Translations under genes and position numbers: made by a program | Part shown: piece after piece, positions 1,854 through 5,543 of the stretch | Numbering within the stretch: the stretch's first letter is position 1 | Layout: every line of letters starts with the position of its first letter | Assembly: GCA_902812435.1 (NCBI GenBank) | Contig: CADDZA010000012.1 | Span: 1 to 32,066, forward strand | DNA length: 32,066 nucleotides | Reading direction: 5' to 3' | From: Clostridia bacterium | Lineage (GTDB): Bacteria; Bacillota; DSM-12270; Thermacetogeniales; Thermacetogeniaceae | The notes under the pieces: model-generated | The model's input: only the letters and a program-made list of their open reading frames with translations | What the model was told of the DNA's origin: nothing | Database searches by the model: none

Positions 1854-3545
1854 TTAGTAAATCGTTTTCTTATACACGTTTTTGACGGTGGATAGGAATA
1901 GATCCACGAGGTTAGGATCGTAGAGAGTGCCAGCGTTTTTCTTTATTTCTATCGAGGCCTCATCAAAACTCAAGGCCTTTCTGTAGGGGCGTTCAGACGT
2001 CATGGCATCGAAGCTATCCGCAAGGCGCACTATCCGAGCCAGGATGGGTATATCGTCCCCCTTTAACCCGTCGGGGTAGCCGGAGCCGTCGTAGTTTTCG
2101 TGGTGAGACCGGATAATAGACACTATATCCTTAAAGGATACTACCGCCTGGATCATCTCGCTTCCCAATACGGTGTGGTTCCGCATAATATCCCATTCCT
2201 TCTTTTTTAAACTACCTTCTTTTGTTAAAACCATCGTTTCTATTTCGAGCTTCCCGATGTCGTGCAAAAAGGCTCCATACCTGAGAAACTCTTTGGTATC
2301 TTCGTCAATACCCATCTTTTCCGCCATCGCCATAGCGTATGACATCACTCTTTCGGAATGGCCGTAGGTGTACCGGTCCTTGGCGTTGATCAGGGTGATG
2401 AACGTTTGCAGGTAAGCAAAGGCATCCGAAACCTTTAAGCTGCTGATCTCGCTTAACACGGATTGATACAGGCGGGGCATCCCCTTGCTGTACTTCCTCC
2501 TGAACAGGTCGTCTTCCGCAGCTCTGATGAGCGGCAGTGCCTCGGTCCCGTCTTCCGGATAACCAGCCACGCCTTCAGATATGCTGAACGGTTTATATGT
2601 AGCAATGCCTTTTATTTTGAAGAAATCGATGACCCGTGCTTCTATCTCTTTTCGAATATCCTTCGTAAACTCCATTACTGCTTTCTTGTCTTTTCCCGGA
2701 AATACGAGCATGAATTCATCGTTACCATACCTGGCGGCAGCATATAACCCCTCATTGCTCCTGTTTAAAAGCAAATGTCCAATCAGGTTTAACAGTTCAT
2801 CCCCGTACTGGTAGCCGTAAACCGTGTTGTAATATTTGAGTTGGTCTATATCCAGTAAAACAACGGAGAGGGGGGTATTTTCGCTGGCCGCCTTATGTAG
2901 GGAAGCAATTAGCTTTTCCTGTATATAGCGGTGGTTGTGCAAACCCGTAAGCTGGTCGTAATCGGCAAGCTTGAGCAGCTCCTGCTGGGTGTTTCTTTCA
3001 ACCTCCATCAGACCACCGACAAGCCATGCCAGAAGGATGGTAACACTGGCCATGATCACGTTTGATTGAAAGACGCCCGGTGACATAGTAGAGAAAATAC
3101 CATAATCCATAAGAAAGAGCAGGGCACTGGCTGCGACGGCCACGCCAGCGCCCACAAACTTTCCGAAGGCCGTTGCCGCGATGATCACCGGGATCACGAT
3201 CAGCACCTTGGCCCCGCTAAAGTCCCTGCTGTACCAGAGGAAAGCAAATGTCAGCGGAAAAATAACAACAAGAAGAAATAGTTCATCTTTCTTGGAACGG
3301 TTGTTAAATAATTTTGGAATAAGGTTTCGCGCTATGTAAAAAATTATACCCAAGCAAAAAACTGTAGATAACAAGATTAATCCCGCAGGTAAATATAGTC
3401 CGAATTCTACGTTGTAGAAACTAAACACGATCATTAAAAAAATTAGGATGCAAACAATATGGGTAACCAGGATGTATTCGGATATATCTGCAATTCTTTT
3501 CTCTTCCCAGCGGCGCATCTCCTGTTCTCCCCAAGATGGTGTCAT
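1854..3545 (-). CDS. Membrane GGDEF/HD-GYP cyclic-di-GMP protein
   Basis: A 563-residue protein with about six N-terminal membrane segments (residues 25-178), a GGDEF-type domain (about 190-350) and a C-terminal HD-GYP phosphodiesterase domain (about 385-550). The HD-GYP part looks intact: HDIGK at 428-432, HH at 481-482 and DGSGYP at 486-491. The cyclase signature is degenerate: GNDEF at 274-278 in place of GGDEF, with no RxxD inhibitory site in front. It is therefore more likely a c-di-GMP hydrolase with a regulatory or inactive GGDEF domain; this is inference. Its ATG lies 4 nt after the agrD stop, with a GAGGA site inside agrD, so it is the last gene of the agr operon. A second possible start (residue 10) also has a GGAG site. 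Confidence 0.9.
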   Translation of the reverse strand: MTPSWGEQEMRRWEEKRIADISEYILVTHIVCILIFLMIVFSFYNVEFGLYLPAGLILLSTVFCLGIIFYIARNLIPKLFNNRSKKDELFLLVVIFPLTFAFLWYSRDFSGAKVLIVIPVIIAATAFGKFVGAGVAVAASALLFLMDYGIFSTMSPGVFQSNVIMASVTILLAWLVGGLMEVERNTQQELLKLADYDQLTGLHNHRYIQEKLIASLHKAASENTPLSVVLLDIDQLKYYNTVYGYQYGDELLNLIGHLLLNRSNEGLYAAARYGNDEFMLVFPGKDKKAVMEFTKDIRKEIEARVIDFFKIKGIATYKPFSISEGVAGYPEDGTEALPLIRAAEDDLFRRKYSKGMPRLYQSVLSEISSLKVSDAFAYLQTFITLINAKDRYTYGHSERVMSYAMAMAEKMGIDEDTKEFLRYGAFLHDIGKLEIETMVLTKEGSLKKKEWDIMRNHTVLGSEMIQAVVSFKDIVSIIRSHHENYDGSGYPDGLKGDDIPILARIVRLADSFDAMTSERPYRKALSFDEASIEIKKNAGTLYDPNLVDLFLSTVKNVYKKTIY

Positions 3546-3548
3546 AAC

Positions 3549-3680
3549 TTACTTCCTCAAGGCAGCGGGCACTTCGGGCTGATAAAGAAGAGACCAACAT
3601 GTCGGTTTAACGCTTGTGTAGGCTACAAATGCGAGGACGCTGAAAACAAATGGTAATAAACTATTGAAGAGACGCTTCAC
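3549..3680 (-). CDS. agrD: AgrD-like cyclic autoinducer pro-peptide
   Basis: A 43-residue ORF with a GTG start at 3680 and a good AAGGAGG site about 9 nt upstream, inside the end of agrB (20-nt overlap). It has the AgrD layout: a short basic start (MKRLF), a hydrophobic amphipathic helix to about residue 22, a core ending CWSLL (C28-L32), then YQPEVPAALRK with the conserved PEVP tail motif. By analogy with the staphylococcal precursor, where a five-residue ring starting at Cys precedes two residues and then PEVP, AgrB would cleave after L32 and close a Cys28-Leu32 thiolactone. Position directly after agrB supports the call. Ring size and the processed N-terminus are inference. Confidence 0.9.
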   Translation of the reverse strand: MKRLFNSLLPFVFSVLAFVAYTSVKPTCWSLLYQPEVPAALRK

Positions 3681-4314
3681 TCTGTTCTCCCTCCTTTTCC
3701 AAAATATTGTCTAGCATAGTAGCAAACCAGTGCCCCGCTTTGGTCAAGGTAAAGGCCTGCCACCAAACTCCCAGGCTTGCGGATAATACTATAGCTGCAA
3801 ATGAATCCTTATTTATAATCAACAGATACTGTACAGCTGTAATCAAACACACAGAGGCCAGTGACAAATTATGCAATTTTTTTCTGTGTACTGCAAAAGT
3901 GATCGGCTTCGCCGGAGAATCAACCGGCGCCAGGCGCCAGACGATAATCAATGAAATAATAAACCCCAGCATTACTGTTAAAAGTAGTCCGGAAGAGGTT
4001 AGCAAAGGAGACGTTATTAAGGCTATTTTTCCCAATAAAGGAGCAATGACCGCTCCGAGTATAGTACATGTTAAAGGTGTTCTGCTGTGGGCGCCACCGG
4101 AGAAAAGGCGTAAAAATGCTGATGTCAAGGTGGCTACTAGGGTTGTCCAGAAGCAACCTAGAAGTAATGCGATAATAAGGATGCTGATGTAGCCAGTGAA
4201 GGAATATAACAGAAATTGAAGGCCAAACAGGGCTATTTCTTCTTCTTCCTGGCTTAAGTTAAGCCTATCCTTTAAATAGGCCGCAATTGGTCGGGTGATA
4301 TTTAAACTCAACAA
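3661..4314 (-). CDS. agrB: AgrB-type membrane cysteine peptidase
   Basis: A 217-residue polytopic membrane protein of the accessory gene regulator B family, which trims the AgrD C-terminus and forms the thiolactone peptide. It shows the hallmark SGGAHS stretch with His76 and Cys83 spaced as in the catalytic pair of AgrB, and the APVDSPAKPI segment typical of the family. The start is a TTG at 4314 (a second TTG follows), overlapping the upstream gene by 7 nt. It is followed by agrD, which begins inside its 3' end. No AgrA or intact AgrC kinase lies in the window, so the receptor is either the upstream membrane protein, the downstream GGDEF/HD-GYP protein or something elsewhere. Confidence 0.92.
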   Translation of the reverse strand: MLSLNITRPIAAYLKDRLNLSQEEEEIALFGLQFLLYSFTGYISILIIALLLGCFWTTLVATLTSAFLRLFSGGAHSRTPLTCTILGAVIAPLLGKIALITSPLLTSSGLLLTVMLGFIISLIIVWRLAPVDSPAKPITFAVHRKKLHNLSLASVCLITAVQYLLIINKDSFAAIVLSASLGVWWQAFTLTKAGHWFATMLDNILEKEGEQSEASLQ

Positions 4315-4784
4315 TTAGTAATTAAACCCCTTCTGTGGTTATAGTAATTTTTCACCAAAGCCAACAATAGCAAGATTATTTCGTACGGGAGGGCAAAAGC
4401 TGCCCTTAAAAAAGGGTTGAAAAAAACAGTTTCGTATGATAGACCTGTGATATTTAAAAGTGGCTTTATATAAAGCACTTCTGCTATTGCTAAAATAGCA
4501 TAGCATACCACTATAGCTAAAAAAATTCTGCTTAATTTTGCTTTGGTAAAAAAACACGTAAAAATGGCTAAAGAAATGATTAAAATTACCGAATGCATCC
4601 CAAAAGCTATAGGTAAAAGGCGAACCAGGTTGGTAAATGTGAGAAGTAAAGCGACCCAAAGCACTCTTCGATCCCACAATCGGAAATTTATAAGGCTAAA
4701 AACCGCCATTGTTACTGCTACACTTTCGGGAAAATCTTGCAGCAGCAAAGCATACAAAATGTCGGGGAATGTTTCGTGAACCAT
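4308..4784 (-). CDS. Integral membrane protein resembling a sensor-kinase receptor domain without the kinase
   Basis: A 158-residue protein made almost wholly of about five hydrophobic segments, with short charged loops and a basic tail (NYYNHRRG). It begins with ATG at 4784 behind a TAAGGAGG site and is the first gene of the agr operon, overlapping agrB. Its composition and layout recall the N-terminal sensor part of AgrC-like or Spo0B-type kinases of clostridia, but it ends where the dimerisation and ATPase domains would begin. No catalytic motif is visible. The receptor role is inference from neighbours; a role as an AgrB partner or membrane scaffold is also possible. Confidence 0.75.
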   Translation of the reverse strand: MVHETFPDILYALLLQDFPESVAVTMAVFSLINFRLWDRRVLWVALLLTFTNLVRLLPIAFGMHSVILIISLAIFTCFFTKAKLSRIFLAIVVCYAILAIAEVLYIKPLLNITGLSYETVFFNPFLRAAFALPYEIILLLLALVKNYYNHRRGLITNC

Positions 4785-4903
4785 CAGTGGTGCCTCCTTA
4801 AGTGCAATATACTTTCATTCGGCATAAATCTAAGATTTCCTTCTCTTACAAATCAAGACCAAAGTAGGAATCATATGAGACTTTAATCCATATTTTGTTC
4901 TTT

Positions 4904-4932
4904 TTTCTACAAAATCGTACATGTCTTGTCAA
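4904..4932 (-). promoter_or_regulatory. Probable sigma-A promoter of the agr operon
   Basis: Reading the minus strand, TTGACA (4932-4927), a 17-nt spacer and TAGAAA (4909-4904) lie about 120 bp upstream of the first operon ATG. The -35 box is perfect and the -10 box matches 4 of 6 bases. The intervening leader is AT-rich; no clear operator was seen in it. Confidence 0.55.
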
Positions 4933-5009
4933 AAAGTATTTATTTTATCTCAATTATGTTTAGAATAGTCATAGAGAGATCTAATTACTCCAAAACATGG
5001 GAGGAGACA

Positions 5010-5543
5010 ATGGAAACAAGGATCAACAACTCAGTTCTTCAACTGGTTGAGGGCGACATTACGGAACTTGCAACGGATGCCATTGTCAATGCCGCCAACT
5101 CCTATTTGAAACACGGGGGAGGGGTTGCGGGAGCAATCGTCAGAAAAGGTGGAAGGGTGATCCAGGAGGAATCGGATAGGATCGGTTACTGTCCTGTTGG
5201 ACAAGCGGTAATCACCGGTGCAGGAAATCTAAAGGCAAGATACGTGATTCACGCCGTTGGTCCGAGAATGGGGGAGGGGGACGAGGACGAAAAATTAAAA
5301 AATGCCACTATAAACAGCCTGAAACTGGCTGACGAAAAAGAACTCAAGAGCATAGCCTTTCCGGCCATCAGTTCCGGGATCTTTGGTTTTCCTATCGACC
5401 GCTGCGCTAAAATAATGCTGACAACGGCAATCAATTATCTTCGCAGTGAAACAGGGCTGGAAAGGGTTATTTTCTGTCTTTACGGAAACGAGGCTTATAA
5501 CGTTTTCCTGGAAGAATTCAGACGTCAAACCGGACAAAAATGA
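5010..5543 (+). CDS. Macrodomain protein, probable O-acetyl-ADP-ribose deacetylase
   Basis: A 177-residue single macrodomain. The ligand-binding signature NAANSYLKHGGGVAGAI is at about residues 27-43, after VEGDIT with Asp16, and the diphosphate loop PAISSGIFGFP is present. Bacterial relatives remove acetyl groups from O-acetyl-ADP-ribose or hydrolyse ADP-ribose esters. The ATG at 5010 is chosen because it follows GGGAGGAG at the right distance; a longer in-frame reading from a TTG at 4926 has no ribosome binding site and no family resemblance. It is transcribed alone, divergent from the agr operon and convergent with ylzJ. No partner ADP-ribosyltransferase or sirtuin gene is in view. A weak TAGAAT -10-like box at 4961-4966 lacks a convincing -35. 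Confidence 0.9.
   Translation: METRINNSVLQLVEGDITELATDAIVNAANSYLKHGGGVAGAIVRKGGRVIQEESDRIGYCPVGQAVITGAGNLKARYVIHAVGPRMGEGDEDEKLKNATINSLKLADEKELKSIAFPAISSGIFGFPIDRCAKIMLTTAINYLRSETGLERVIFCLYGNEAYNVFLEEFRRQTGQK

Follow-up and report, generated by a model that had tools for sequence, protein, structure and literature searches.

The four genes and their products

The window, by which we mean the whole 32,066-nt stretch of DNA that was analysed, was predicted from its sequence to carry four abutting or overlapping minus-strand genes for a receptor-like membrane protein (here REC), AgrB, AgrD and a c-di-GMP enzyme. All four are present, and their domains or homology match these labels (Table 1). 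REC and agrB overlap by 7 bases and agrB and agrD by 20, and the output gene has its first ATG, at 3545, 3 bases beyond agrD. In known agr systems, reading the peptide falls to a kinase and a regulator; neither an AgrC histidine kinase nor a LytTR-type AgrA was found among the genes of this operon, as the original prediction had held. For the single promoter that it also claimed there is no more than a candidate, TTGACA-17-TAGAAA, picked out by eye upstream of REC; a consensus scan of the upstream region found no promoter, and the spacing of the candidate differs in the sister species. A Macro-domain gene (window 4926-5543) diverges from the operon, and the upstream region is common to both.

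Table 1. The agr-type operon of the window: genes, input domain and candidate promoter
Feature	Position	Strand	Description
REC	4308..4784	minus	158-aa five-helix membrane protein; kinase-less AgrC-type sensor-domain homologue; proposed peptide receptor
AgrB	3661..4314	minus	217 aa; membrane peptidase, predicted peptide cyclisation and export
AgrD	3549..3680	minus	43-aa precursor; predicted ring CWSLL, then YQPEVP
TM-GGDEF-HD-GYP protein	1854..3545 (likely start 3518)	minus	Identified by Pfam, alignments and AlphaFold helices
Membrane input domain (TM)	2985..3515	minus	Common to histidine kinases of sister agr loci; from alignment, survey and trees
Candidate promoter TTGACA-17-TAGAAA	4904..4932	minus	Upstream of REC; by eye

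The AgrB product matches PF04647 (E = 8e-39) and has the features of the agr cysteine peptidase, including R69, H76 and C83, which are invariant in the alignment and which we take to correspond to the catalytic part of AgrB from S. aureus. Searching viral contigs with the AgrB of the window brought up no relatives. An Ammonifex MAG has the four-gene operon preceded by a second AgrB, which lies close to a separate GGDEF gene (L085:4946-5581). The AgrD product matches TIGR04223 above the curated cut-off (E = 1.5e-10) and combines a ring cysteine with the conserved C-terminal motif of AgrD precursors. Enzyme-type loci supplied 61 different AgrD sequences; 58 of them place a Cys exactly five residues ahead of [YH]QP, and in one Ser takes this place. 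In 18 close relatives, selected for having the Cys-[YH]QP register so that their fixed Cys and QP are partly a matter of construction, the ring residues after the Cys are variable (1.8-3.1 bits), in contrast to the invariant Cys and QP, the P that follows and the P and L on the flanks. A variable ring between fixed flanks has the look of a signal that has diversified while its processing sites were kept.

No match to REC was found in Pfam or NCBIfam. Profile comparison (phmmer/hhalign) relates it to the N-termini of fused AgrC-like Spo0B-type kinases with 99.6% probability (E = 1.5e-23), the comparison set being the fused kinases in agr loci of the phylum. REC is homologous to the AgrC-type membrane sensor domain of the agr family, which bears out its description as receptor-like. 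Its AlphaFold model, of high confidence (pLDDT 92.5), shows five long helices packed in a bundle. Compared by fold with solved structures, this model has no significant match, and the REC sequence likewise finds none among them, which counts against the mechanism that we propose below. Across the surveyed loci REC is kept beside agrB. Two loci contain REC-kinase pairs with no agrB or recognisable agrD nearby (L048:6041-7382 and L052:4142-5486), and these pairs possibly listen to a peptide produced elsewhere.

The output gene matches GGDEF (E = 2.4e-26) and HD_5 (E = 3e-36) in Pfam, and six N-terminal helices are present in the AlphaFold model of its product, in agreement with the predicted c-di-GMP enzyme with a six-helix membrane domain. 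The arrangement of the whole enzyme in this model is uncertain (pTM 0.50), which also counts against that mechanism. Since 66% of homologues have their aligned start at M10, and many homologues begin at a matching MRxWE, the more likely start is at 3518 (MRRWEEKR), nine residues inside the listed open reading frame, rather than at 3545. The HD-GYP motifs (HDIGK and HHExxDGxGYP) are intact in the window enzyme, as they are in almost every one of 76 homologues. The GG(D/E)EF motif is canonical in 55 of the 76 and reads GNDEF in the window enzyme, from which the product-inhibition site RxxD before the motif is also absent. Given GNDEF, c-di-GMP synthesis may be lost, a further point against the proposed mechanism; the GGDEF domain may retain activity, be weak or serve a regulatory role. 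With the HD-GYP motifs intact and the GGDEF motif altered, hydrolysis of c-di-GMP is the activity more safely predicted for this protein.

Distribution of the gene order

The association was surveyed in genomes of the phylum, both from AgrB and from the membrane input domain. A search of 399 genomes for PF04647 yielded 165 positives, and 80 AgrB neighbourhoods were taken down the score list without regard to their neighbours, with previously collected loci excluded, and annotated with custom-built profiles. A TM-GGDEF-HD-GYP gene lies directly downstream at 20 of these 80 agrB loci. The remaining loci carry a LytTR regulator of the classical type (22), a kinase only (21), a TM-kinase (2), an HD-GYP protein alone (1) or no recognised output (14).

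When an equal number of genomes of the phylum was searched with the TM domain alone, 81 places gave strong matches (E below about 2e-19), 48 of them within 6 kb of a listed AgrB; the neighbourhoods of the other 33 were inspected. Among these 33, every locus of the GGDEF-HD-GYP type for which upstream sequence exists has agrB and/or agrD upstream. In a pooled set that includes AgrB-seeded and REC-seeded loci, and of which the TM-seeded portion is the less biased, agrB and/or agrD lies directly upstream of all 71 TM-GGDEF-HD-GYP enzymes for which 1.5 kb or more of upstream sequence is available, and REC is also present at 68 of the 71; seven further enzymes lie near contig ends. Enzyme loci without a recognisable REC are L129, L251 and L253. 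Where upstream sequence exists, then, TM-GGDEF-HD-GYP is found only behind agrB/agrD, and the link of agr to this enzyme is a dedicated one. A chance origin of the neighbourhood was considered and rejected, the pairing being seen from both the AgrB side and the TM-domain side.

The original prediction would have failed had the gene order not been conserved in relatives. The order REC-agrB-agrD-TM-GGDEF-HD-GYP recurs across the 31 families of the phylum sampled in which the enzyme occurs, and in genomes of the window's own family it is kept with near-constant spacing. A scan of named genomes recovered the matching arrangement in Syntrophaceticus schinkii, a Thermacetogenium sp., Desulfofundulus and Desulfotomaculum copahuensis, with Fonticella tunisiensis and many Clostridium species as further carriers.

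Sensor, input domain and apparently exchangeable outputs

The TM domain is not confined to c-di-GMP enzymes: in sister loci it is also fused, in the same slot, to histidine kinases of PAS or GAF type. On a tree of 155 REC domains, the distinction between RECs with and without a TM partner requires 2 changes (shuffled mean 44.8, lowest 38, the shuffles ignoring relatedness, so that these figures indicate clustering and carry no probability), and that between c-di-GMP enzyme and TM-kinase requires 9. On the tree of the TM domain itself, well-supported branches force at least 10 switches of output. REC phylogeny tracks the TM domain and not the output, for which the simplest reading is that REC and TM work together and that the output is exchangeable. 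The pair thus has the appearance of a movable sensor whose outputs can be swapped, and at some loci both outputs occur together (L049, L137, L270 and L250). At another locus (L191:5027-7269), agrB, agrD and REC are followed by a two-helix HD-GYP protein in the slot of a two-helix kinase, apparently a second, independent route to a c-di-GMP output; the AgrD ring at this locus has Ser in place of Cys.

We propose that the operon is an agr-type quorum-sensing cassette whose output, c-di-GMP turnover, would be set directly by the peptide, a reading drawn from homology and gene neighbourhood to which we assign a probability of about 0.7. AgrB would cyclise AgrD to a thiolactone peptide whose ring of five residues is predicted to be CWSLL, and would export it. 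We infer that REC, as a detached AgrC-type sensor domain, would bind this peptide in the membrane, either alone or with the six-helix input domain of the enzyme, and that REC would touch the input domain and pass the signal through a long helix to the GGDEF and HD-GYP domains with no phosphorelay intervening. The signal would shift the balance between c-di-GMP synthesis and breakdown, an effect whose direction we likewise infer. A density-dependent response to secreted cyclic AgrD peptide is predicted.

Were the enzyme's own six-helix domain the peptide receptor, REC would be an accessory, for instance one that works with AgrB to process or export the peptide. Such a division of labour would suit the restriction of the TM domain with GGDEF-HD-GYP to agr loci, as well as the few loci in which no REC is recognised (L129, L251, L253). 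We consider it unlikely, because REC is homologous to an AgrC sensor domain that is fused to kinases, and because its occurrence beside kinases without a nearby agrB (L048, L052) is a poor fit to a role in processing. An operon-like layout would also be expected if the enzyme were merely co-transcribed with the agr genes, in which case quorum state would govern its amount and not its activity; transcriptional agr control of c-di-GMP genes has a precedent in C. difficile (PMC3754575). However, the specific membrane input domain, common to kinases in the same slot, and a REC phylogeny that tracks this domain argue for a signal at the protein level and leave the co-transcription account quite improbable.

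The genome of the window and known systems

The genome from which the window derives (G000) is 85% complete in 141 contigs, and targeted family searches of it found only one AgrB. Contig C119 (L034:718-3320) bears a REC-like gene, a Spo0B-type kinase and a LytTR response regulator that is split over two frames, as well as an AgrD-like gene; the interval from kinase to regulator contains no AgrB. Contig C107 (L242:29-2666) bears an AgrD-like gene and then a TM-kinase of 817 aa, whose homologues in sister genomes are TM-GAF-kinase-receiver proteins (L042/L043); the genes upstream are lost at the contig end. No AgrB was found at either locus, and both contigs are short. Cross-talk is possible, as is trans-processing of the C119 or C107 AgrD by the window AgrB, and through these kinases a parallel phosphorelay could read the window peptide or a related one. 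These AgrD-bearing kinase loci count against direct control of the enzyme by the peptide, since the window peptide could also feed kinases. That one of the two kinases, the REC-kinase-LytTR system of C119 or the TM-GAF-kinase of C107, is the true receiver and the enzyme a side branch would be in keeping with the presence of both loci and their AgrD-like genes, but we give this hardly any credence, because each locus has an AgrD of its own, the C119 regulator is interrupted in the assembly, and the four-gene set recurs in many genomes whatever kinase loci are seen there.

Six GGDEF genes were found in this genome, together with one YcgR-type PilZ gene located between FlhG-like and cheB genes. 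A c-di-GMP-I riboswitch (L208, contig C16) lies about 130 bases upstream of a gene for a TPR/Cu_amine_oxidN1 protein, probably a surface protein. The PilZ gene and the riboswitch give this genome readers of c-di-GMP, in favour of the proposed output, and these genes suggest a link to motility and surface properties. A reverse-transcriptase-like fragment, joined in frame to another C-terminal part, adjoins the riboswitch.

Beyond the window, we find it reasonably probable that a widespread class of agr systems uses REC and the membrane input domain as a peptide-sensing unit plugged into various outputs, including phosphorelay-free c-di-GMP turnover, and so provides Clostridia-type bacteria with a direct quorum circuit from peptide to second messenger. 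The kinase-less sensor domain and the c-di-GMP enzyme are paired in dozens of families, mostly of environmental anaerobes. If the proposal is correct, population density would be coupled to motility and attachment in one step, small membrane proteins beside agrB would gain a testable role, and REC with TM would offer a defined, portable two-protein peptide sensor.

Judged by its AgrB, AgrD and sensor domain, the window locus appears to be a member of the agr family that falls outside its classical two-component output. It has in common with the AgrBDCA systems of Staphylococcus and Clostridia an AgrB, an AgrC-type sensor domain and an AgrD with a conserved C-terminal recognition motif behind its Cys ring; it differs in lacking the AgrC kinase and AgrA, in having its sensor as a separate 158-aa protein and in having a membrane GGDEF/HD-GYP enzyme as output. 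Our search of the open-licence literature found no description of an agr operon carrying a GGDEF/HD-GYP gene. The agr locus of C. perfringens likewise has genes of unknown function upstream of agrB, the hypothetical genes CPE1563/CPE1562, which are co-transcribed with agrBD; in complementation, a plasmid carrying CPE1563/CPE1562 worked whereas agrBD alone did not, and the sections of that report drawn on here describe no GGDEF/HD-GYP gene (PMC2706048). In C. difficile, agr influences c-di-GMP through AgrA, by way of the transcript levels of genes elsewhere, and this transcriptional control of distant genes sets it apart from the window operon (PMC3754575).

Functional parallels also lie outside the agr family. 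MbaA is a GGDEF-EAL protein, and so is RpfR, which binds its signal through a cytoplasmic PAS domain. The NspS-MbaA system of Vibrio cholerae resembles the proposed one in that a separate ligand-binding protein governs a bifunctional membrane c-di-GMP enzyme, although its ligand is a polyamine and NspS is a periplasmic binding protein, a receptor unrelated to REC (PMC8967002, PMC5646818). RpfR, the BDSF receptor of Burkholderia and Cronobacter, is similar in connecting a quorum signal to a c-di-GMP enzyme without a phosphorelay, and differs in that the signal is a fatty acid and not a cyclic peptide (PMC6361424, PMC3703271). By analogy, the window system would work like NspS-MbaA and RpfR while being a member of neither.
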